Virus record (IMG/VR): IMGVR_UViG_3300025117_000201
Span: 1-28,585 of that record
DNA: 28,585 bases
From: a virus
Direction: 5' to 3' (one strand)
Shown here: in pieces, positions 1,352 to 25,499 of the stretch
Layout: each line of letters opens with the position of its first letter
Numbering within the stretch: position 1 is the stretch's first letter
Made by a program: the position numbers and the translations under genes
The notes under the pieces: model-generated
What the model was told of the DNA's origin: nothing
Database searches by the model: none
The model's input: the letters and a program-made list of their open reading frames with translations, nothing else

Positions 1352-1876
1352 TTGGTTTCACTCTTACTATTTAAGAATAATTTTATCGGACTTGTTCTAT
1401 TCAACCTATTTTTTATTATAAACTATGCTCTTGGGGAAAACTTTATTGGAAACGACCTTGACCTGATTTCCATAAATGGCGAAGATGGAAGAATGCTTGC
1501 CGTTGGAAAGAAAAACTTTTTTCTTGGTCTTATCGGTTTGTTTTTTATGCTTTGGTGGACAATTTATGCTTGGTTGATTTTATTCGTAGGTGGACACCGT
1601 AGCTGGGCATCACATGGCATTCTGATAGGAACTTTGGGGAGGATTCTCTGGTTCAACGTTCCTTTGGTTATTTTGTTGAACGGGATTTATGGCTTTGGCG
1701 TCACGCGTTGGGGATGGACGAGTAATTTTGGCTATGAGCTATTCTTAGATATCTGGATTCTGCCTTACCTGATTTCACAATTTCTGGCGTGGATTATAAC
1801 GGATTTGACACATTTGTTACTTGACAGTTCGTGGGCTAAATTTCGTTTGTACACACCAAATACTACTGAGAAATAG
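1352..1876 (+). CDS. Multi-pass membrane protein, start uncertain
   Basis: The frame from the TAG at 1271 to the TAG at 1874 encodes a very hydrophobic protein. At least four membrane segments are visible: near SLLLFKNNFIGLVLFNLFF, FFLGLIGLFFMLWWTIYAWL, ILWFNVPLVILLNGIYG and ILPYLISQFLAWIITDL, the last followed by a polar tail. No ATG precedes the first helix. TTG at 1352 is the only conventional alternative start, and it has no convincing SD. Initiation at a rare codon, translational coupling, or amber readthrough from the preceding gene are alternatives. Family unknown; cytoplasmic-membrane location inferred. Confidence 0.6.
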   Translation: MVSLLLFKNNFIGLVLFNLFFIINYALGENFIGNDLDLISINGEDGRMLAVGKKNFFLGLIGLFFMLWWTIYAWLILFVGGHRSWASHGILIGTLGRILWFNVPLVILLNGIYGFGVTRWGWTSNFGYELFLDIWILPYLISQFLAWIITDLTHLLLDSSWAKFRLYTPNTTEK

Positions 1877-1895
1877 GAGGAGCGACAAATAGAAG

Positions 1896-2681
1896 ATGGC
1901 TTCTGGAATATATTGCATAGAAAATTTAGACAATAATAAAAAATATATTGGTTTTGCGACAAATCTAGAATCTAGGAAAACAGACCATATTTCAGCATTA
2001 AGAAGTAAAAGGCACGATAACCCGTATCTTCAGAATGTATGGAATAAGCATGGTGAAAAATCTTTCAAATTCTGGGTTATTGAAGAATATCCGAAAAATG
2101 AAGAAATTTTGAAATTAATGGAAATTTATTTTATTGCATATTATAATTCTTATCGTGGTGATGGCGGAGGCTATAATTTAACACGGGGCGGGGATGGAAG
2201 TTTTGGATATAAACACACAGAAGAATCTCTTGAGAAAATATCTAAAAATAGAATTTATAAAAGAGGAAAAGATCATCCTAATTACGGAAAATCTCCCAGC
2301 GAGGAATCAAGAAATAAGGCATCAAAATCAAGTAAGAACAATCCTGTTTTTAAGACGATAAACCTAGGGAAAAAAGCAAGTGAAGAAACAAGAAAAAAAC
2401 AATCCGCGGCTAGACTTGGAAAACCAACAATAAAATCAAGGAAAAATTTTTCATCTCAGTATTATGGAGTATCTTGGTCTGAAAAAAATAAAAGATGGAT
2501 TTGTTACAAAACAGAATGCTATAAGGTTAAGAATCTGGGTTCTTTTATTAACGAAATGGACGCGGCCAGAAGGTGGGATAGATACATAATTGAGAATTCT
2601 CTTGAAGAAGTATTTCCGTTGAATTTTCCAAAGAATTATGTTGGAAACAAGAAGCTTTTTTGTCCGTTTACCAAAAAATAA
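1896..2681 (+). CDS. GIY-YIG homing endonuclease with NUMOD3 and AP2 modules
   Basis: A 261-aa protein. Residues about 3-90 form a GIY-YIG nuclease domain (GIYCIEN, KKYIGFAT, then the conserved ME near MEIYFIAYYNS and GYNLTRGG). Residues about 105-175 contain NUMOD3-type repeats (HTEESLEKISKN, SEESRNKASKSSKN, SEETRKKQSAARLGK), which bind DNA in such enzymes. Residues about 188-240 (YYGVSWSEKNKRW, DAARRWDRYIIEN) form an AP2-like DNA-binding module. Family members are selfish enzymes that cut intron- or gene-less alleles and spread by recombination. It stands free between two membrane-protein genes; an in-frame TAG just upstream of ATG 1896 fixes the start. Codons are AT-richer than its neighbours. 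Confidence 0.88.
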   Translation: MASGIYCIENLDNNKKYIGFATNLESRKTDHISALRSKRHDNPYLQNVWNKHGEKSFKFWVIEEYPKNEEILKLMEIYFIAYYNSYRGDGGGYNLTRGGDGSFGYKHTEESLEKISKNRIYKRGKDHPNYGKSPSEESRNKASKSSKNNPVFKTINLGKKASEETRKKQSAARLGKPTIKSRKNFSSQYYGVSWSEKNKRWICYKTECYKVKNLGSFINEMDAARRWDRYIIENSLEEVFPLNFPKNYVGNKKLFCPFTKK

Positions 2682-2699
2682 ATTAAATGAGGTTAGAAA

Positions 2700-3641
2700 A
2701 TGAATTTTCAAAAGTATAAAGGCATCTTGGAAGATTTTGGGAAAAAGAGGGAAATAGAATTTGAAGTTTTTTTAAAAGATTATTCTGAACGCAATCCTCC
2801 TCCGATAAACAAAAATGTTTATCCGTCTATCAAGTTTTGGTTGGCGTTGTTTTGCGGTATTTCTGCTGTGGGGGCATCTGGCTTGAGAGTTTATGATCGA
2901 TTTTTTCAAGTGGCTCAAACATCTGGGGCCGGATTAACTATATCTACTTTAGAGGCAATGTTTGGTGTCGGGGCAATCAACATTGCAATTGTCGCGATGT
3001 CTTTTGCTGTGGCATACATAAAAAGAAGGATGTCCGATAAATCTCTTATGGCAGGGCTTATTACTGCGGTTGGGATAAGTCTTATTGCCGGACTAGGACA
3101 AAGTTTTGCTGGACTAGGGATGGCTCAAGTTATGGGGGGGTTTGACTGGGTGTTGGCGATTGCTCTCTCTGCTCTTACTGCTCTCGAATATTTAAGCGGA
3201 GATTTAATGGGTGTAGAATGGGTTTTGTTTGAAACAGAAAAGAAAAGTTCAAAAGAGTTATACGAAAAAGAAAAAAAGATTTGGTTAACTCATGCGAGAG
3301 CGAACATCGGGGCTTGGAAGTCTCAACTTGTTGCTTGGGCTAGTGAACAAGGGGTGAATATGGATGATGTAAGCGAACAAAATGAACTTGATGAACGATC
3401 TCCTCAAAGTAGAACGAGAGGTTCAAAAAATACAATTATCCACAACCAGCTTTTTGATGAAATTTATCGCTCTACAAATGAACTTCCTGGAGTGATTCAA
3501 ACCGCCGAACTTTTAGCGACTAGGCTGGTTGAGGCTGGTAAACTTTCAGCCGAAGGAAAAGAGCAGTTCATACACGATAAAAAGGGTTCAATTTCAACAA
3601 GTCGTAAGCGTTGGATGTTAGAAAAAGGTTTAACAAAATAA
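2700..3641 (+). CDS. Four-helix membrane protein with soluble C-terminal domain
   Basis: 313 aa; ATG 2700 follows GAGGTTAGAAA. A short charged N-terminus (1-40) precedes four membrane segments: about 45-68 (FWLALFCGISAVGASG), 80-106 (FGVGAINIAIVAMSFAVAYI), 112-140 (MAGLITAVGISLIAGLGQS) and 148-170 (WVLAIALSALTALEYL). The C-terminal 135 residues are soluble and charged, with basic patches (RSPQSRTRGSK, STSRKRWMLEK) that could contact nucleic acid. No family is recognised. With the CDSs at 1352 and 3747 it forms a cluster of membrane proteins; whether they assemble together is unknown. Confidence 0.75.
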   Translation: MNFQKYKGILEDFGKKREIEFEVFLKDYSERNPPPINKNVYPSIKFWLALFCGISAVGASGLRVYDRFFQVAQTSGAGLTISTLEAMFGVGAINIAIVAMSFAVAYIKRRMSDKSLMAGLITAVGISLIAGLGQSFAGLGMAQVMGGFDWVLAIALSALTALEYLSGDLMGVEWVLFETEKKSSKELYEKEKKIWLTHARANIGAWKSQLVAWASEQGVNMDDVSEQNELDERSPQSRTRGSKNTIIHNQLFDEIYRSTNELPGVIQTAELLATRLVEAGKLSAEGKEQFIHDKKGSISTSRKRWMLEKGLTK

Positions 3642-7533: not shown

Positions 7534-7550
7534 TAAAAGGAAAATTTTAT
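7533..7550 (+). repeat. 18-bp intergenic palindrome copy (perfect)
   Basis: ATAAAA-ggaaaa-TTTTAT. It shares a base with the upstream stop, and its right arm forms the ATG at 7549 of the RNA ligase. The AAAAGGA in the left arm and centre serves as the SD, so SD and start both lie in the palindrome. Confidence 0.8.
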
Positions 7551-8640
7551 GAGTAGTCTCATTGTTGAAGTTTGTAAAATTGATGATATTGAAAAACATC
7601 CTAACGCTGACCGATTGAGTGTCGCCCAGGTGCGTGGTTGGAACTGCATAGTTGGTCTTGACCAATACGCCGTCGGGGATAAAGTTGTATTTATTCCGCC
7701 AGATTGTGTTATTCCTGATGTCTTGATTGAAAAATACAATCTTGAGTATCTCAAACACAACGGGCGTACTGGAACAGTCAAATTGCGCGGCGTTATTTCG
7801 CAAGGACTAATTCTCGACCTTCCTGAAGGAAAATGGAAGGTTGGTGACGATGTTTCCGCCGTTCTTGGAATTACAAAGTATGAGCCACCCGAACCAAAGT
7901 TTTCTGTTCGTGGAGCAAATCAAACATCTAAAAAGAAACTTAATCCTGCTTTTGATAAGTATACGGACATTGAGAACATTAAGAACTACAACGATGTTTT
8001 CAAAATTGGTGATTTGGTCGTTGTTACAGAAAAAATTCACGGAACCAATAGCAGGTTTGGAAATCTTGAAATTCAAACAAATAAAAACAATCCCATTCTT
8101 TATCGTTTACAAAAATGCTTTGAAAAAAGATTTCTTGGACGAACTCACGAGTTTGTATATGGCTCTCACAACGTCCAAATTTCCTTCCATACCAGCAGAA
8201 AGAATTTTTACTCCGAAGATGTTTGGGGCAAGGTGGTGTCTCGGTATGACCTTGCTAATCGGATTCCAAAAGATACAATTATTTATGGAGAAATTTACGG
8301 AGATGGAATTCAGGATTTGACATATGGATTGAAAGGCGATGTTGACCTTGTTGTTTTTGATGTGAAGAGAAATGGAAATTATCTTGATTTTGAAGATGCT
8401 TATACTGTCACAAAAGAATTGGGGTTATCTTTTGTTCCAATTCTCTATACGGGAGAATATTATGACGGTATTCTGGGTAAATACACAGACGGAGAGTCCT
8501 CTCTAAGCCCGAATCAAATTAAAGAGGGTTGCGTCATTAAATCTTATGTTGAAGAAAACAACCTCCGTCTTGGCAGAAAGATTCTCAAGAGCATAAATTC
8601 CGTGTATCTTACTCGCAAGAACGGCACTGAATTCAAATAA
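7549..8640 (+). CDS. RNA ligase, DraRnl/Rnl5 type (TIGR02306-like)
   Basis: 363 aa. Residues 1-115 form an N-terminal OB-type domain (VEVCKIDDIEKHPNADRLSV, GLDQYAVGDKVVFIPPD). The nucleotidyltransferase domain follows: motif I EKIHGTN with the AMP-accepting Lys162, motif III IIYGEIYG at 244-251, IIIa VDLVVFDV at 265-272, motif IV EGCVIK at 326-331 and motif V near RKILKSIN at 343-350. Length and order match the Deinococcus radiodurans DRB0094 RNA ligase family (about 340 aa), which seals 3'-OH/5'-phosphate nicks in RNA duplexes. In phages such ligases repair host- or phage-damaged RNA. The large tRNA array downstream makes tRNA repair a reasonable guess; no kinase-phosphatase partner is visible here. 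Confidence 0.88.
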   Translation: MSSLIVEVCKIDDIEKHPNADRLSVAQVRGWNCIVGLDQYAVGDKVVFIPPDCVIPDVLIEKYNLEYLKHNGRTGTVKLRGVISQGLILDLPEGKWKVGDDVSAVLGITKYEPPEPKFSVRGANQTSKKKLNPAFDKYTDIENIKNYNDVFKIGDLVVVTEKIHGTNSRFGNLEIQTNKNNPILYRLQKCFEKRFLGRTHEFVYGSHNVQISFHTSRKNFYSEDVWGKVVSRYDLANRIPKDTIIYGEIYGDGIQDLTYGLKGDVDLVVFDVKRNGNYLDFEDAYTVTKELGLSFVPILYTGEYYDGILGKYTDGESSLSPNQIKEGCVIKSYVEENNLRLGRKILKSINSVYLTRKNGTEFK

Positions 8641-21259: not shown

Positions 21260-21370
21260 AATGTTCAAGGGACATTGACCGACTTGTCACATAGACCAAC
21301 TCACGATGGGCACGCCTGTCGGAGGGACGCAAAGCGACCCATAGAGAAAAGCGTAGATGACTAAAACGAT
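21260..21370 (+). ncRNA. Structured leader of the tRNA operon, unassigned
   Basis: About 110 nt between the likely transcription start and the first tRNA contain no ORF of note. Pairings seen: CCGAC (21279-21283) with GTCGG (21318-21322), and GGG-A-CGC (21324-21330) with GCG-A-CCC (21334-21340) around AAA. It has no T-loop signature, so it is not a recognisable tRNA; it may be a leader hairpin set, a processing signal or a small RNA. Confidence 0.35.
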
Positions 21371-21444
21371 GCCGGATACAGCAGCCTGGTTCAACTGAGG
21401 AGAATCATAATCTTCGTATCGTGGGTTCGAATCCCACTCCGGCT
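21371..21444 (+). tRNA. tRNA-Met (CAT), or Ile2
   Basis: Cloverleaf with anticodon loop ATCATAA in stem GGAGA/TCTTC and T-arm GTGGG-TTCGAAT-CCCAC; acceptor GCCGGA/TCCGGC. A CAT anticodon could mean elongator Met, initiator or lysidine-modified Ile2; the array has a second CAT tRNA, so the two may divide these roles. Confidence 0.85.
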
Positions 21445-21447
21445 ATA

Positions 21448-21521
21448 TGCTCCTTTAGCTTAGAGGTAAAAGCACTCGGCTTACATCCGAGAGACCGATG
21501 GCTCGAACCCATCAAGGCGCA
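21448..21521 (+). tRNA. tRNA-Val (TAC)
   Basis: Anticodon loop CTTACAT in stem CTCGG/CCGAG; T-arm GATGG-CTCGAAC-CCATC; acceptor TGCTCCT/AGGCGCA with one T-C mismatch. No encoded CCA. Confidence 0.85.
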
Positions 21522-21537
21522 CTTGCAACAATCTCAT

Positions 21538-21612
21538 AGGGAAGTGGTCTAGTCTGGTCTATGGCTCCCGCTCTGGACGCGGGAAATCGGAGGTTCAAAT
21601 CCTCTCTTCCCT
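21538..21612 (+). tRNA. tRNA, probably Pro (TGG), with C33
   Basis: Perfect acceptor AGGGAAG/CTTCCCT, T-arm GGAGG-TTCAAAT-CCTCT, anticodon stem CCCGC/GCGGG. The 7-nt loop TCTGGAC puts TGG at 34-36 but C instead of the near-invariant T at 33, and A at 37. The identity is therefore less certain. Confidence 0.7.
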
Positions 21613-21618
21613 ACCTAT

Positions 21619-21692
21619 GCCGTCCTTAGCCTATCGGAGTGGCGACTGCCTGTGAAGCAGTATGAAGACCGGTTCGACCCCGGTAGGACTGC
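21619..21692 (+). tRNA. tRNA-His (GTG) with G-1
   Basis: Anticodon loop CTGTGAA in ACTGC/GCAGT; T-arm ACCGG-TTCGACC-CCGGT. The acceptor has an extra G at -1 opposite C73, the hallmark of tRNA-His, which supports the call independently of the anticodon. Confidence 0.9.
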
Positions 21693-21767
21693 CCTCGGCA
21701 CATATAAAGACGCGTATTTCCCTCACAAATATAATTTTGCAGAAATCCGTTTTGTGTGTCTTTCGTT

Positions 21768-21839
21768 TCTCCATTCGACTAGAGGTAAGTCCCTACACTT
21801 TGAATGTAGTGATCGCAGGCCCGAAACTTGCATGGAGAG
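21768..21839 (+). tRNA. tRNA-Gln (TTG)
   Basis: Perfect acceptor TCTCCAT/ATGGAGA; anticodon loop CTTTGAA in CTACA/TGTAG; T-arm GCAGG/CTTGC with the unusual loop CCCGAAA. The 75 bp before it (21693-21767) hold nothing recognisable. Confidence 0.82.
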
Positions 21840-21846
21840 CCTTGCA

Positions 21847-21897
21847 CCTATACACAAGAGACGATGAAAAGCGTCGGCCTGTCGTAACCGATATAGG
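21847..21897 (+). ncRNA. Cloverleaf-like element between tRNAs, unassigned
   Basis: The stem CCTATA/TATAGG closes two inner hairpins: GACG-N8-CGTC, and CGG/CCG around CCTGTCGTAA. It sits where a tRNA is expected and contains CTGTCG, but no T-arm with a TTCRA loop and no 7-bp acceptor can be drawn. It could be a decayed tRNA or another small RNA. Confidence 0.3.
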
Positions 21898-21913
21898 CTT
21901 GGAAGGGCAATAA

Positions 21914-21989
21914 CCTCGTGTAGCTCGGTCTGGTTTAGAGCAATCGGCTGATATCCGATAGGACATTCGTTCAAATCGAATCGCGAGGA
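21914..21989 (+). tRNA. tRNA-Ile (GAT)
   Basis: Acceptor CCTCGTG/CGCGAGG, anticodon loop CTGATAT in ATCGG/CCGAT, T-arm ATTCG-TTCAAAT-CGAAT. It starts with C1, unusual for tRNA-Ile of bacteria. Confidence 0.88.
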
Positions 21990-22200
21990 CAGTAAGCAGC
22001 AAATTTGGTAAATTTGCTGAAAGTCGAGATAAAACTACCCATGCGACTCCTAGGAGTTTTGAGCAGAATTAATTAGATTCTCGAATCGAGGAAACCGACT
22101 GGATAACCAAAAATGGGTACGGCACACAAACGTCAAAGGCGTTACGGGGTTCGCGCGGACGCCTAAACAGATGTTGAAAGTACCTCCTGTGTGCAACTAT
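21990..22200 (+). ncRNA. Structured non-coding stretch in the tRNA array, unassigned
   Basis: About 210 bp without a plausible CDS or canonical tRNA. It holds a perfect 10-bp hairpin CAGCAAATTT-ggt-AAATTTGCTG (21997-22019), the 12-bp palindrome ACTCCTAGGAGT (22046-22057), a long-range pair ACCCAT (22037-22042) with ATGGGT (22113-22118), and a 73-nt unit closed by GCACACA (22122-22128) and TGTGTGC (22188-22194). The unit encloses AACG/CGTT and GGCGT/ACGCC pairs. It has tRNA length and a 7-bp acceptor-like stem but no standard anticodon or T-arm. Confidence 0.4.
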
Positions 22201-22218
22201 ATAAAAGTTTGATTTTAT
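22201..22218 (+). repeat. 18-bp intergenic palindrome copy (perfect)
   Basis: ATAAAA-gtttga-TTTTAT, followed by AGGACAGAGT, the SD of the CDS at 22229. No stop codon of an upstream gene is involved because non-coding RNA precedes it. Confidence 0.8.
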
Positions 22219-22228
22219 AGGACAGAGT

Positions 22229-22417
22229 ATGCTTATTGTAACTCTTCATAATGACAGCACCGGCGATGAGCAAATCGGCAATTATAATTGTCGCGTATTT
22301 ATAAATAGAACGTTGTTATATGAAGGAAGAGTCGAAGGTCATCTTCGTCACGACTGGAGAGATTTGATTATCCAATGGGCAAAACAGTTAGAAGAAGAAA
22401 AACGATTGAGACCTTGA
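22229..22417 (+). CDS. Small phage protein inside the tRNA array, 62 aa
   Basis: ATG 22229 with the SD ATAGGACAGAGT behind a perfect palindrome. The product (LIVTLHNDSTGDEQIGNYNC, VFINRTLLYEGRVEGHLRHD, WRDLIIQWAKQLEEEK) matches a pattern seen in small hypothetical phage proteins: strands ending in GxVxGHxRxDxW and a C-terminal helix. Function unknown. It is the only convincing protein gene between tRNAs and is followed by a new promoter. Confidence 0.7.
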   Translation: MLIVTLHNDSTGDEQIGNYNCRVFINRTLLYEGRVEGHLRHDWRDLIIQWAKQLEEEKRLRP

Positions 22418-22441
22418 CAAGAGCAGAAGATGTGCTAAAAT
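22414..22441 (+). promoter_or_regulatory. Sigma70-type promoter in the tRNA array (TTGACA-16-TAAAAT)
   Basis: TTGACA at 22414-22419, a 16-bp spacer ending in TGC, and TAAAAT at 22436-22441, 9 bp before the tRNA-Ser gene. Confidence 0.75.
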
Positions 22442-22450
22442 AATTGTATT

Positions 22451-22537
22451 GGGAAGGTGTCCGAGCTTGGTTTATGGAAACCGTCTAGAAAATGGTCAAG
22501 GGTAAAACCTTCAGTGGTTCAAATCCACTTCTTCCCG
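22451..22537 (+). tRNA. tRNA-Ser (AGA)
   Basis: Class II tRNA with a long variable arm. Acceptor GGGAAGG/TCTTCCC, anticodon loop CTAGAAA in ACCGT/ATGGT, T-arm AGTGG-TTCAAAT-CCACT. A34 is unusual for bacterial serine tRNAs. Confidence 0.87.
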
Positions 22538-22552
22538 CTAAAAATTGAATAT

Positions 22553-22641
22553 GGACGCAAGGCAAATATTGGTTAAGTTGCCCATGCCTGTAGAGCATGA
22601 GTCTGCCAGACAGAGTGGGGGTTCAATTCCCTCGGCGTCCA
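22553..22641 (+). tRNA. tRNA-Tyr (GTA)
   Basis: Class II. Acceptor GGACGC/GCGTCC, anticodon loop CTGTAGA in CATGC/GCATG, long variable arm GTCTG-CCAGAC, T-arm with TTCAATT. Confidence 0.9.
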
Positions 22642-22642
22642 C

Positions 22643-22714
22643 TGGTTAGTAGCACAATGGCAATGCAGGATGCTCATAACGTCTTGATTGAGAGTCCGAA
22701 TCTCTCCTAACCAA
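22643..22714 (+). tRNA. tRNA-Met (CAT), second copy, or Ile2
   Basis: Acceptor TGGTTAG/CTAACCA, anticodon loop CTCATAA in GGATG/CGTCT, T-arm GAGAG-TCCGAAT-CTCTC. It differs strongly from the CAT tRNA at 21371; one may be Ile2 read by lysidine synthetase. Confidence 0.85.
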
Positions 22715-22718
22715 TGCT

Positions 22719-22789
22719 GGCTTCTTGGTATATGGGTATCACGTCGCTCTGTCGAAGCGAAAAAGCGAGTCCAAGTCTCGCAGAGGCCG
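22719..22789 (+). tRNA. tRNA-Asp (GTC)
   Basis: Acceptor GGCTTCT/AGAGGCC, anticodon loop CTGTCGA in TCGCT/AGCGA, T-arm GCGAG-TCCAAGT-CTCGC, discriminator G. Confidence 0.88.
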
Positions 22790-22793
22790 CCTT

Positions 22794-22871
22794 TGCCCTC
22801 TCGGTCTAAATGGATTATAGACGCATCCCTTTCAAGGATGAGGGTGAGAATTCGAGTTTCTCAGAGGGCAC
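22794..22871 (+). tRNA. tRNA-Glu (TTC)
   Basis: Perfect acceptor TGCCCTC/GAGGGCA, anticodon loop CTTTCAA in CATCC/GGATG, T-arm TGAGA-ATTCGAGT-TTCTCA. Confidence 0.87.
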
Positions 22872-22940
22872 ACGCTTAACCGCGGGGAGACTGTTTGTTG
22901 ATTTCATAGAACTCTGGTGGTAATCATAGAAATCAGAAAA

Positions 22941-23013
22941 TGCTTTTCTCGTCTAGTGGTAGGACTTCCGGTTCTCAGCCGGAGAAGAAGGGGTCAGTAC
23001 CCTTGAAAAGCAC
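22941..23013 (+). tRNA. tRNA-Glu (CTC)
   Basis: Perfect acceptor TGCTTTT/AAAAGCA, anticodon loop TTCTCAG in TCCGG/CCGGA, T-arm AGGGG/CCCTT. The 69 bp before it (22872-22940) show no feature. Confidence 0.87.
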
Positions 23014-23032
23014 ATGAATTAGGAGTTTCATT

Positions 23033-23101
23033 GACCACTTCATCCGATGGTGAATTATCTCTGCAAAAGATATAGGAAGAGTTTAACTCTCTTAGTGGCC
23101 T
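23033..23101 (+). tRNA. tRNA-Cys (GCA)
   Basis: Acceptor GACCACT/AGTGGCC (one A-C mismatch), anticodon loop CTGCAAA in TATCT/AGATA, T-arm AAGAG-TTTAACT-CTCTT. It is short, with a reduced D-arm region. Confidence 0.8.
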
Positions 23102-23104
23102 TAT

Positions 23105-23187
23105 GGAGTGCTGGCGTAATGGTATCGCAGAAGATCGCTAATCTTTCCAGCCGAAAGGTTGTCCGCGTTCAAGTCGCGGGCGCTCCG
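23105..23187 (+). tRNA. tRNA-Ser (GCT), with C33
   Basis: Class II tRNA: variable arm CCAGCC-GAAA-GGTTG, acceptor GGAGTGC/GCGCTCC, T-arm CCGCG-TTCAAGT-CGCGG. Loop TCGCTAA in GAAGA/TCTTT gives GCT with C33; the variable arm supports Ser. Confidence 0.82.
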
Positions 23188-23196
23188 CTGTTTTAC

Positions 23197-23267
23197 GGGG
23201 ATGTAGTTCAATGGCAGAACGGTTAGCTGTTAACTAACGAACGAGAGTCCGATTCTTTCCATCCTCG
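23197..23267 (+). tRNA. tRNA-Asn (GTT)
   Basis: Acceptor GGGGATG/CATCCTC, anticodon loop CTGTTAA in GTTAG/CTAAC, T-arm GAGAG-TCCGATT-CTTTC. Confidence 0.88.
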
Positions 23268-23272
23268 CCTTT

Positions 23273-23343
23273 GCGGTGATAGTTTAGTGGTAAAACGCCA
23301 TCCTTCCAAGTTGGACTCCCGATTTCGATTATCGGCCACCGCT
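23273..23343 (+). tRNA. tRNA-Gly (TCC)
   Basis: Acceptor GCGGTG/CACCGC, anticodon loop CTTCCAA in CCATC/GTTGG (one mismatch), T-arm CCGAT-TTCGATT-ATCGG. Confidence 0.85.
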
Positions 23344-23348
23344 CTCAA

Positions 23349-23420
23349 TGCCATTATCGTATAAAGGTATTACTTCTGTCTGAAAAGCAGAATATGATGA
23401 GTCGAGCCATCTGATGGCAC
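23349..23420 (+). tRNA. tRNA-Phe (GAA)
   Basis: Acceptor TGCCATT/GATGGCA, anticodon loop CTGAAAA in TCTGT/GCAGA, T-arm GATG/CATC with a GTCGAGC-type loop. Confidence 0.84.
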
Positions 23421-23423
23421 TAT

Positions 23424-23497
23424 GCGAGTATAGCTCAATTGAATAGAGCAGGAAGCCACGAACTTCAAGGTTGGAGGTTTGAGTCCTCTTATTCGCT
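23424..23497 (+). tRNA. tRNA-Arg (ACG), with C33
   Basis: Acceptor GCGAGTA/TATTCGC, D-arm AGCTC...GAGC, T-arm GGAGG-TTTGAGT-CCTCT. Loop CCACGAA in GAAG/CTTC gives ACG; position 33 is C. Confidence 0.82.
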
Positions 23498-23501
23498 CTT
23501 T

Positions 23502-23575
23502 GCCGGTGAAGCATAAGTGAAATATGCGCCGACTCGGTAGGTCGGAGACAGGAAGTTTAAATCTTCTCGCTGGCT
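23502..23575 (+). tRNA. tRNA-Thr (GGT), with C33
   Basis: Acceptor GCCGGTG/CGCTGGC, perfect anticodon stem CCGAC/GTCGG with loop TCGGTAG, so GGT with C33; T-arm GGAAG-TTTAAAT-CTTCT. Confidence 0.82.
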
Positions 23576-23579
23576 CTTT

Positions 23580-23651
23580 GCATCCAAAGCCTATATGGTG
23601 AGGCACTTGCATCGTAAGCATGATAAGCGGATTCGAGTTCTGCTGGATGCT
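23580..23651 (+). tRNA. tRNA-Thr (CGT)
   Basis: Perfect acceptor GCATCCA/TGGATGC, loop ATCGTAA in CTTGC/GCATG (one mismatch), T-loop ATTCGAGT. Confidence 0.83.
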
Positions 23652-23652
23652 C

Positions 23653-23681
23653 TTGACAAAACTGTTATCTTGTGTTATACT
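23653..23681 (+). promoter_or_regulatory. Sigma70-type promoter in the tRNA array (TTGACA-17-TATACT)
   Basis: TTGACA at 23653-23658, a 17-bp spacer ending in TGTGT, and TATACT at 23676-23681, 12 bp before tRNA-Leu (AAG). Confidence 0.85.
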
Positions 23682-23693
23682 ATAACCACAATT

Positions 23694-23777
23694 GAAAACG
23701 TGATGAAACTGGCAACCATGCTAGGCCAAGAACCTAGTGGGATAAAACCCTTGGGAGTTCAACTCTCCCCGTTTTCA
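23694..23777 (+). tRNA. tRNA-Leu (AAG), with C33
   Basis: Class II. Perfect acceptor GAAAACG/CGTTTTC, perfect anticodon stem CTAGG/CCTAG with loop CCAAGAA (AAG, C33), variable arm GGG-ataaaa-CCC, T-arm GGGAG-TTCAACT-CTCCC. A34 is rare for bacterial Leu. Confidence 0.82.
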
Positions 23778-23886
23778 CTGCAAAGAGAGTGGCTTTGTTG
23801 AGCCAACAACAACTCTCCCGAAAGGTCAAACTCTAATAAATGAAATGACCTGATGCAAATGAGCGACAGTCGGAAAGACGACAAAA
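23778..23886 (+). ncRNA. Structured inter-tRNA RNA, unassigned
   Basis: 109 nt without a tRNA or CDS. Pairings: GAGAGT (23785-23790) with ACTCTC (23812-23817), enclosing GGCT/AGCC; GGTCA (23824-23828) with TGACC (23846-23850); GTCG (23869-23872) with CGAC (23879-23882) around GAAAGA. Three hairpins in a row suggest a folded RNA. A hammerhead was considered because of CTGATG and GAAA, but the core does not fit. Confidence 0.35.
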
Positions 23887-23957
23887 GCCCTTGTAGCTCA
23901 GTGGTCGAGCTTCTGACTTTTAATCAGAAAACGGGAGTCCGATTCTCCACGGGGGCA
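23887..23957 (+). tRNA. tRNA-Lys (TTT)
   Basis: Acceptor GCCCTTG/CGGGGGC, D-arm AGCTC...GAGC, perfect stem TCTGA/TCAGA with loop CTTTTAA, T-arm GGGAG-TCCGATT-CTCCA. Confidence 0.88.
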
Positions 23958-23963
23958 TATTTG

Positions 23964-24002
23964 ATGTACAGAATAATACGATTTTCGTAATGTTTTGTAC
24001 AT
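23964..24002 (+). other. Long hairpin between tRNA genes
   Basis: ATGTACA (23964-23970) pairs with TGTACAT (23996-24002), and TACGA with TCGTA near the apex; the interior is nearly continuous with one A-A mismatch and G-T pairs. No T-run follows, so it may be a processing hairpin rather than a terminator. It overlaps the next palindrome by two bases. Confidence 0.45.
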
Positions 24003-24018
24003 AAAACATAACTTTTAT
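24001..24018 (+). repeat. 18-bp intergenic palindrome copy (perfect), before a tRNA
   Basis: ATAAAA-cataac-TTTTAT, 5 bp upstream of tRNA-Lys (CTT). No coding gene starts nearby. Confidence 0.8.
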
Positions 24019-24023
24019 TAAAC

Positions 24024-24096
24024 GCCTCCATAACACAAACGGATAGTGTAATCGGTTCTTACCCGATAAGTGGGGAATCATACTCCTCTGGTGGCA
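24024..24096 (+). tRNA. tRNA-Lys (CTT)
   Basis: Acceptor GCCTCCA/TGGTGGC (one T-T mismatch), D-arm ACAC/GTGT, perfect stem ATCGG/CCGAT with loop TTCTTAC, T-arm GGGGA/TCCTC. Confidence 0.82.
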
Positions 24097-24100
24097 TAAC

Positions 24101-24173
24101 CCATTTGTAGCCGAATGGCATAGGCAACCGCCTTAGAAGCGGAAATATGGAGGTTCGAATCCTCCCAAATGGA
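24101..24173 (+). tRNA. Class I tRNA with UAG anticodon (nominally Leu)
   Basis: Perfect acceptor CCATTTG/CAAATGG and T-arm GGAGG-TTCGAAT-CCTCC. Loop CTTAGAA in CCGC/GCGG puts TAG at 34-36, which would read CUA/CUN leucine codons. The variable region is only about five bases, whereas the other Leu tRNAs here and known bacterial Leu tRNAs have a long variable arm. The amino acid is therefore uncertain. Confidence 0.75.
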
Positions 24174-24177
24174 CTGA

Positions 24178-24258
24178 CCTCGATTGGCGGAAAGCAGACG
24201 CGCTTGGCTCAAGACTAAGTGCCCGAAAGGGCGTGAAGAGTCGAATCTTCATCGAGGA
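24178..24258 (+). tRNA. tRNA-Leu (CAA)
   Basis: Class II. Perfect acceptor CCTCGAT/ATCGAGG, loop CTCAAGA in CTTGG/CTAAG, variable arm GCCC-GAAA-GGGC, T-arm GAAGA-GTCGAAT-CTTC. Confidence 0.88.
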
Positions 24259-24262
24259 CTAT

Positions 24263-24342
24263 GGCAGGATGGTGGAATGTTTACACACTACGCTTAAGAC
24301 GTAGCGTCTTCGGACATGCAGGTTCAAGTCCTGTTCCTGCCA
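24263..24342 (+). tRNA. tRNA-Leu (TAA)
   Basis: Class II. Perfect acceptor GGCAGGA/TCCTGCC, perfect stem CTACG/CGTAG with loop CTTAAGA, variable arm GTC-TTCG-GAC, T-arm GCAGG-TTCAAGT-CCTGT. Confidence 0.9.
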
Positions 24343-24361
24343 CAAATTTAAATTATTTTTA

Positions 24362-24379
24362 ATAAAAGCGAGGTTTTAT
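24362..24379 (+). repeat. 18-bp intergenic palindrome copy (perfect), before a tRNA
   Basis: ATAAAA-gcgagg-TTTTAT, 4 bp upstream of tRNA-Arg (CCT), followed by TAAGG although no protein gene follows. Confidence 0.8.
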
Positions 24380-24383
24380 TAAG

Positions 24384-24455
24384 GTTCTCATAGTTCAATG
24401 GACAGAACATTCGTTTCCTAAACGAACAGTAGCAGTCCGAGTCTGCTTGGGAACT
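24384..24455 (+). tRNA. tRNA-Arg (CCT)
   Basis: Acceptor GTTCTCA/TGGGAAC, perfect stem TTCGT/ACGAA with loop TTCCTAA, T-arm AGCAG-TCCGAGT-CTGCT. Confidence 0.87.
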
Positions 24456-24466
24456 TTTTATTCAAC

Positions 24467-24495
24467 TTGACAGGTTGGCGATACTGTGGTATACT
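24467..24495 (+). promoter_or_regulatory. Sigma70-type promoter (TTGACA-17-TATACT)
   Basis: TTGACA at 24467-24472, a 17-bp spacer ending in TGTGG, and TATACT at 24490-24495, 9 bp before tRNA-Arg (TCT). No terminator is visible before the SSB and primase genes, so it may also transcribe the replication block. Confidence 0.85.
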
Positions 24496-24504
24496 GTTTT
24501 ATAT

Positions 24505-24577
24505 GCCCGCATCGTCCAATGGATCAGGATACAAACCTTCTAAGTTTAAGACCTCAGTTCGAGTCTGAGTGTGGGCG
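24505..24577 (+). tRNA. tRNA-Arg (TCT)
   Basis: Acceptor GCCCGCA/TGTGGGC, stem AAAC/GTTT with loop CTTCTAA, T-arm CTCAG-TTCGAGT-CTGAG. Last tRNA of the array. Confidence 0.86.
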
Positions 24578-24594
24578 CAGATTTCATATCTACA

Positions 24595-24834: not shown

Positions 24835-24930
24835 ATGTTTATCTGGATTAAAAAACTCTTCGTTCCTCACGGATGTTACTGTTACAAAGCAGTGAAATTA
24901 ATCAAATATATTGCGAAGAGTGGGAATTAG
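24835..24930 (+). CDS. Small 31-aa ORF, overlapped by homing endonuclease fragment
   Basis: ATG 24835 lies two bases after the previous stop. It encodes a basic/hydrophobic peptide (MFIWIKKLFVPHGCYCYKAV) ending at TAG 24930. The beginning resembles short phage peptides of the WIKKLF-H-x-C type. It overlaps the endonuclease frame at 24873, so it may be the remains of a gene invaded by the endonuclease, or a genuine small gene. Confidence 0.35.
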   Translation: MFIWIKKLFVPHGCYCYKAVKLIKYIAKSGN

Positions 24931-25499
24931 ATAGATTAGAGATTGCTTGTATAAAAATGTTTCATTCTCATGTGTCTGAGGGTGGTTATAATATTACTTG
25001 GGGAGGAAATGCCCCTATGATGGGGAGAAAACACACCGAAGAATGGAAGAAAGAAGCAAGCGCAAGAATGAGTGGAGAAAAAAATTGGAATTATGGAAAA
25101 TTTGGAAAAGAAAATCCACTTTATGGACGAAAGCGCACCGAAGAAGAAAAAACAAAAATGAGAGAAGGTATAGCTAAAAACAACAATCCAAATAGAAAAA
25201 GATTTGGAAAAGAAAATCCATTTTTTGGAAAGCATCATTCCAAAGAAACAATAAAATTATTGGCAGTTAATTTTGGAAAAAAATTAAAAGGGGCGACATC
25301 TAAATATTATGGTGTTTCTATACACAATGTCTATGCTAATAATAAACATTATGTATATTGGAGATGCTATGTTGGGACAAAAATACTGGGACAATATAAA
25401 ACTGAGATTGAAGCGGCTCTTGCATATGACAAATATGTAATAGAAAATAAAATTGACCGCCCATTAAATTTTCCAAAGGAGGATGAACAACGGCAATAA
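24873..25499 (+). pseudogene. Truncated GIY-YIG/NUMOD3/AP2 homing endonuclease
   Basis: 208 aa from ATG 24873, without an SD. Compared with the enzyme at 1896 the catalytic GIY...YIG strands are missing; the frame begins at the helix before the conserved Glu (WELDRLEIACIKMFHSHVSE) and GYNITWGG. NUMOD3-like repeats follow (HTEEWKKEASARMSG, RTEEEKTKMREGIAKN, HSKETIKLLAVN), each with a GxxNPxxGK-type linker. A C-terminal AP2 module (YYGVSIHNVYANNKHYVYW, EAALAYDKYVIEN) completes it. Without the active-site half it is probably inactive as a nuclease, yet it could still bind DNA. AT-rich codons mark it as an intruder between tRNAs and replication genes. Confidence 0.75.

Follow-up and report, generated by a model that had tools for sequence, protein, structure and literature searches.

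Transfer RNAs (tRNAs) usually have a uridine at position 33 of the anticodon loop (U33), and the vertebrate initiator tRNA is a natural case of a cytidine at this position (C33). The closest described systems are found in phages. Van den Berg 2023 (PMC10264068) deals with phage arrays in which anticodon loops are changed and the tRNAs are otherwise intact, and the terms "U33", "C33" and "position 33" are absent from those parts of its main text that were available. Table 8 of PMC12482277, a source likewise consulted in part, has U33 in 25 of 25 phage loops and 25 of 25 host loops. No paper on C33 in phage tRNAs was found in the open-licence literature, as judged by title and the start of the abstract. 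The DNA described here, termed the window, is the IMG/VR virus record IMGVR_UViG_3300025117_000201, a fragment of 28,585 bases with a GC content of 39%. It carries an array of 27 supported tRNAs (21370..24578, plus strand), five of which have C33. These five resemble the vertebrate initiator tRNA in their natural C33, but the latter is an initiator and eukaryotic. Large arrays with C33 tRNAs also occur in T5-like phages, such as DT57C, TrudiRoth and IME260, although the isotypes concerned are unlike those of the window except for Arg(ACG).

The C33 tRNAs of the window, all on the plus strand, are tRNA-Pro(UGG) (21538..21613, loop UCUGGAC, with A37 in addition), tRNA-Ser(GCU) (23105..23187, loop UCGCUAA), tRNA-Arg(ACG) (23424..23497, loop CCACGAA), tRNA-Thr(GGU) (23502..23575, loop UCGGUAG) and tRNA-Leu(AAG) (23694..23777, loop CCAAGAA). 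The Rfam covariance model RF00005 scores them at 52.3, 45.3, 49.3, 37.4 and 43.8 bits, respectively, with a gathering cut-off of 29 bits. The usual U33, which is not needed for a match to this model, is missing from all five. An earlier note, made from the letters of this DNA, had reported C33 in these tRNAs together with well-formed stems, and both observations are confirmed. The acceptor stem (seven of seven pairs) and the T stem (five of five) are complete in every case, and the anticodon stem has all five pairs except in Arg(ACG), which has four. The note had also named a covariance model that restores U33 as a possible refutation. When RF00005 was run, each loop had seven nucleotides and the C was kept in the U33 column in five of five; shifted loop readings were discarded, as the model and the stems leave no seven-nucleotide alternative with U33. 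None of the five has a second gene with the same anticodon among the 27 supported tRNAs. The codons they read are ordinary ones, for example CTT and CCA with 24 and 13 per 1,000, respectively (of 4,872).

Support for the array comes from ARAGORN for 24 tRNAs and from RF00005 for another three, namely Phe(GAA) (23350-23419, 46.0 bits), the C33-bearing Thr(GGU) (23502-23575, 37.4 bits), which ARAGORN missed, and Leu(CAA) (24178-24258, 34.9 bits). The count of 28 given in the earlier note is thereby reduced by one: a Cys-like hairpin near 23040-23101, spotted by eye, has no tRNA match. G37 is usual for the isotypes Pro(UGG), Leu(AAG) and Leu(UAG). In the window, A37 is found in Pro(UGG) (21538-21613), Leu(AAG) (23694-23777) and Leu(UAG) (24101-24173).

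The near-invariance of U33, on which the earlier note relied, holds for the bacterial chromosomes sampled. A generic pattern of the D arm plus base 33, which catches only tRNAs with that D arm, gave 266 matches with U33 in 58 of 60 bacterial genomes and none with C33 in the same 60 genomes. All 58 tRNAs detected by ARAGORN in 30 bacterial loci, some of them overlapping, have U33. With patterns for Arg(ACG), the U33 form was found in 21 of 40 genomes and the C33 form in one of 150, this one being the centre genome, which had been picked for having C33. Further searches for C33 gave 0 of 60 and 0 of 61 genomes, in each case without a U33 control of the same pattern and group. Bacterial assemblies contain at least four Arg(ACG) tRNAs with C33 among the 119 pattern matches listed. 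One of these four lies in an array of 13 tRNAs in a Clostridia metagenome-assembled genome (L431), where Asn(GUU) has C33 as well as Arg(ACG); this array is perhaps a prophage.

For phage arrays, U33 is not near-invariant to the same degree. The baseline consists of phage arrays that were fetched by a U33 bait regardless of C33, and it excludes tRNAs failing the stem filter, duplicates and the bait Arg(ACG) tRNAs themselves. C33 is present in 34 of its 1,205 tRNAs, a deviation of about 3%. When duplicates and bait tRNAs are left in, the bases other than U at position 33 in 1,342 rows are 34 C, two A and one G. At the baseline rate, the probability of at least five C33 tRNAs among 27 is 0.0009; in a like-for-like comparison restricted to ARAGORN, the window has four of 24 (P = 0.004). 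Four of 69 arrays with at least eight tRNAs each equal or exceed this fraction of 4/24. As C33 recurs in phage arrays and some of them reach the fraction seen here, the window represents the tail of a real phage distribution. The number of C33 tRNAs is thus above expectation, as the note had claimed, but it is not isolated. C33 tRNAs co-occur in arrays beyond what shuffling gives (16 pairs versus 8.0, p = 0.016). C33 tRNAs of one isotype are divergent in the array sample, with a mean identity of 58% for Ile(GAU) and 52% for Val(UAC), which implies that C33 arose many times or is old. A preference for four-codon boxes was considered as well and set aside as weak (19/420 versus 15/785, p = 0.016). 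A complete viral scan for Arg(ACG) with C33 gave 96 stretches, and nine loci have such a tRNA according to ARAGORN. The corresponding scan for U33 gave at least 120 stretches, at least 103 of them in tRNAs, and the two scans are not comparable as a ratio.

The T5-like phages allow C33 to be followed in named genomes. The array stretch was read in 14 T5-like records, 11 of which contain C33; these records were mostly found by blast likeness to C33 tRNAs, so the fraction gives no rate. Ile(GAU) has C33 in rutana, 26175I, oselot, S126, LVR16A, EscoHU1, Spivey and IME260, Lys(UUU) in rutana, 26175I, S126 and TrudiRoth, and both Arg(ACG) and Leu(UAG) in DT57C and Gostya9. No C33 was found in the arrays of T5, CitS1 and SP15. 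Notes on amber suppressors of T5 were followed as a lead and were of no help, as its 23 ARAGORN tRNAs all have U33. In a blind test, 205 records matched the tRNA-Ile of rutana, and ten were picked along the whole ranking with base 33 unseen. C33 is present in every one of the ten, the most distant of which is 78% identical; they span Epseptimavirus, Sugarlandvirus and Myunavirus. With base 33 masked, identity is at least 74% within the C33 Ile lineage and at most 66% across to U33 lineages. The Ile genes with U33, which lie apart from this lineage, belong to T5, Gostya9, CitS1, SP15, TrudiRoth and one IMG/VR contig. The C33 Ile lineage shows a compensatory change of the first anticodon-stem pair from G-C to A-U, and its first two T-stem pairs are altered on both sides; these changes were read from ten records first found with C33, comprising seven distinct sequences. 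C33 in Lys(UUU) was seen in six of the T5-like records read, including KFSSM and S114, which were read blind; TrudiRoth, KFSSM and S114 had been picked by blast likeness only. Arg(ACG) has C33 in DT57C and Gostya9 and U33 in close relatives, with few other changes between DT57C on the one side and rutana and CitS1 on the other. Similarly, the Arg(ACG) tRNA of Pseudomonas phage KIL1 has C33 where that of VCM has U33. C33 is inherited stably in T5-like phages.

A second position of the window array is altered beyond what the earlier note had described. U55 is the invariant uridine of the T-loop U-turn. Six tRNAs on the plus strand, all with U33, have C55 instead: tRNA-Gln(UUG) (21768..21841), which has C54 too, a tRNA with the anticodon CAU (22643..22714), tRNA-Asp(GUC) (22719..22791), tRNA-Asn(GUU) (23197..23269), tRNA-Lys(UUU) (23887..23957) and tRNA-Arg(CCU) (24383..24456). 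Among the ARAGORN tRNAs of the window this makes six of 24, compared with C55 in 11 of the 1,205 tRNAs of the phage-array baseline (p = 7e-8). Not one of 69 phage arrays contains three C55 tRNAs. The three tRNAs not detected by ARAGORN have no C55 according to the model alignments; their T loop was read poorly by the script. In total, 11 of the 27 tRNAs have C at position 33 or 55, and none has both. A mutual exclusion of the two is not significant (about 0.25 by a rough estimate). A similar array is located at 1716-3484 of IMG/VR 3300031772_000104 (L143), which was fetched for having a C33 tRNA. Its 17 well-formed tRNAs, with nearly complete stems, include four with C33 and three with C55. 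It differs from the window in five further tRNAs with G55, and none of its proteins matches the window at 1e-5. Another alteration of the T loop, a paired swap with A54-T58 in place of T54-A58, was observed in 32 tRNAs of the phage arrays L225-L344.

On balance, and judged from the genes themselves, the five C33 genes appear somewhat more likely than not to encode intact phage tRNAs that work in translation with unedited C33. C33 may be the best-tolerated substitute for U33, since a pyrimidine would still make the turn possible, with a weaker hold. A change of U33 to C in a yeast tRNA is reportedly compatible with amber suppression. Phages might fix C33 repeatedly because their supplementary tRNAs would not need to be as fast or as accurate as those of the chromosome. 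In the window array, this relaxation would extend to the T loop and its U-turn uridine, U55, and relaxation at both positions would result in the 11 of 27 tRNAs with C at either position. Relaxed constraint would thus explain the C33 and C55 of the window together. We infer that the genes are expressed, that the tRNAs are charged and decode with C33, and that relaxed constraint is the cause. Relaxed decoding, one of the explanations raised in the earlier note, or tolerance of C33 is supported by its recurrence in unrelated arrays and its retention in T5-like phages. Several results weigh against relaxed constraint. Across 71 arrays, C33 is not associated with T-loop changes (Spearman -0.10, p = 0.39), and the joint pattern is therefore special to the window array and L143. 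C33 is also concentrated in Ile and Val (17/114 versus 17/1,091 for all others, p = 7e-10), and long-term retention in T5-like phages is not predicted by plain relaxation; relaxed constraint leaves both this excess and this retention unexplained.

Decay, the possibility that the C33 genes of the window are degenerate or unexpressed, was also listed in the earlier note and is unlikely. The divergent T loops of the array (C55, C54) would fit decay, as would Phe and Leu(CAA), which are one base short in the alignment of the model. However, the acceptor and T stems of the five are complete, and none of them has a same-anticodon copy among the 27. Tests on a wider set point in the same direction; it consists of both bait sets of phage loci and is therefore partly picked for C33. 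The mean numbers of acceptor, anticodon and T-stem pairs are 6.91, 4.92 and 4.96 in 53 C33 tRNAs versus 6.85, 4.78 and 4.94 in 1,712 U33 tRNAs, and the TTC of the T loop is kept in 92% of either group. A copy with the same anticodon in the locus is found for 3 of 53 C33 tRNAs and for 181 of 1,717 others (p = 0.36), so redundancy is not higher. Broken stems and lost T loops, the marks of decayed genes, characterise neither the five tRNAs of the window nor C33 phage tRNAs generally, some of which are conserved with compensatory changes. The main rival is evasion of nucleases. C33 would be selected as it spoils the cleavage or recognition site of host anticodon nucleases that recognise U33 or cleave next to it, while decoding is kept, and phage translation would outlast the destruction of host tRNAs. 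This is possible, if doubtful. According to the parts of the literature consulted, PrrC cleaves 3' of U33 in tRNA-Lys and RloC makes its second cut at the same place (PMC2610378), phage tRNA-Lys rescues phages from a PrrC system (PMC11555353), and changes in the anticodon loop of phage tRNAs have been proposed to evade nucleases (PMC10264068). Some T5-like phages have C33 in tRNA-Lys itself, and C33 is isotype-biased and stably retained. The window further encodes an RNA ligase with an N-terminal OB fold (7549..8640, plus strand; phrog_968 with an E-value of 5.4e-54, PF09414, PF21189), which might act in tRNA repair by mending cut tRNAs. Against evasion, the tRNA-Lys of SP15, reported as a rescuer from PrrC in the text available, has U33, and so do the tRNA-Lys genes of the window. 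In the array sample, C33 is present in 0/70 Lys, 1/51 Glu, 2/66 Gln and 1/80 Thr tRNAs. The preferred targets of LshCas13a are Lys(UUU), Glu(UUC), Gln(UUG) and Thr(UGU), as far as PMC11042736 was consulted, and only one Thr(UGU) among these has C33. Evasion of Cas13a as a general cause was consequently rejected, as the C33 isotypes do not match these targets. At position 33, the five tRNAs of the window differ from 25 of 25 Shigella loops, the host loops given in Table 8 of PMC12482277.

Editing of C to U, which would restore U33, and U55 as well, after transcription, was proposed in the earlier note too and is very unlikely. It is suggested by the kind of changes seen. In the ARAGORN set, the window has 14 changes at positions 33, 54 and 55, namely 12 C, one A and one G, whereas the baseline has 50 C, 45 A and 27 G. 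The share of C is thus 12/14 versus 50/122 (p = 0.0016), the changes fall at both U-turn uridines, and editing is conceivable because C accounts for most of the replacements at these U positions. A transition bias alone would suffice, though, and the converse change of C56 to U is seen in Arg(ACG) and Thr(GGU). In L143, the altered base 55 is G in five of eight cases. A Pfam scan of 29 distinct open reading frames of the window, part of those on the fragment, gave no deaminase family, and the hosts of phages with C33 belong to several genera, so that editing would have to take place in each of them. From the sequences at hand, editing would not be required to explain C33. There is a slim chance that a phage or host activity makes C to U at both positions 33 and 55, so that such genes yield normal tRNAs; if so, the window array, with its 11 of 27 genes, would be the best substrate set.

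Megablast of the first 25 kb of the window against 50,697 phage records gave no match. Besides the RNA ligase, the window encodes a tyrosine integrase, a Sak4-like ATPase, a primase-helicase and homing endonucleases. NUMOD3 genes are located at 24873-25499, directly downstream of the tRNA array, and at 1896-2681, the latter with a GIY-YIG domain in addition. The Sak4-like protein as query led to relatives at seven loci, and two further proteins of the window retrieved none. A tRNA family search over the seven records gave no match, and ARAGORN detected only one Met tRNA each in two of these loci (L002 and L003). The genome L221, whose Sak4-like protein is 57% identical to that of the window, has five model-supported tRNAs, including Thr(UGU) with C33; an Arg-like tRNA with a six-nucleotide loop is ambiguous. 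In the genome of a relative (L507), tRNA-like genes were observed at 584-656 and 1264-1342 on the minus strand. One has an anticodon loop of six nucleotides, and the anticodon arm of the other has 19 bases compared with the 11 expected by the model.

U33 is taught as near-universal. In phage tRNAs, C33 recurs, and cultured T5-like phages that infect E. coli, Salmonella, Klebsiella and Pectobacterium have retained it. Among these are TrudiRoth, with C33 in Lys(UUU), and TrudiGerster, with C33 in Ile(GAU), whose records are tagged bas30 and bas27 and which belong to the BASEL collection. As C33 is kept in such cultured phages, the need for U33 and the function of altered phage tRNAs can be tested in laboratory E. 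coli. If C33 is edited, this would reveal a new RNA-processing activity. If C33 blocks anticodon nucleases, it would constitute a counter-defence of a single base.

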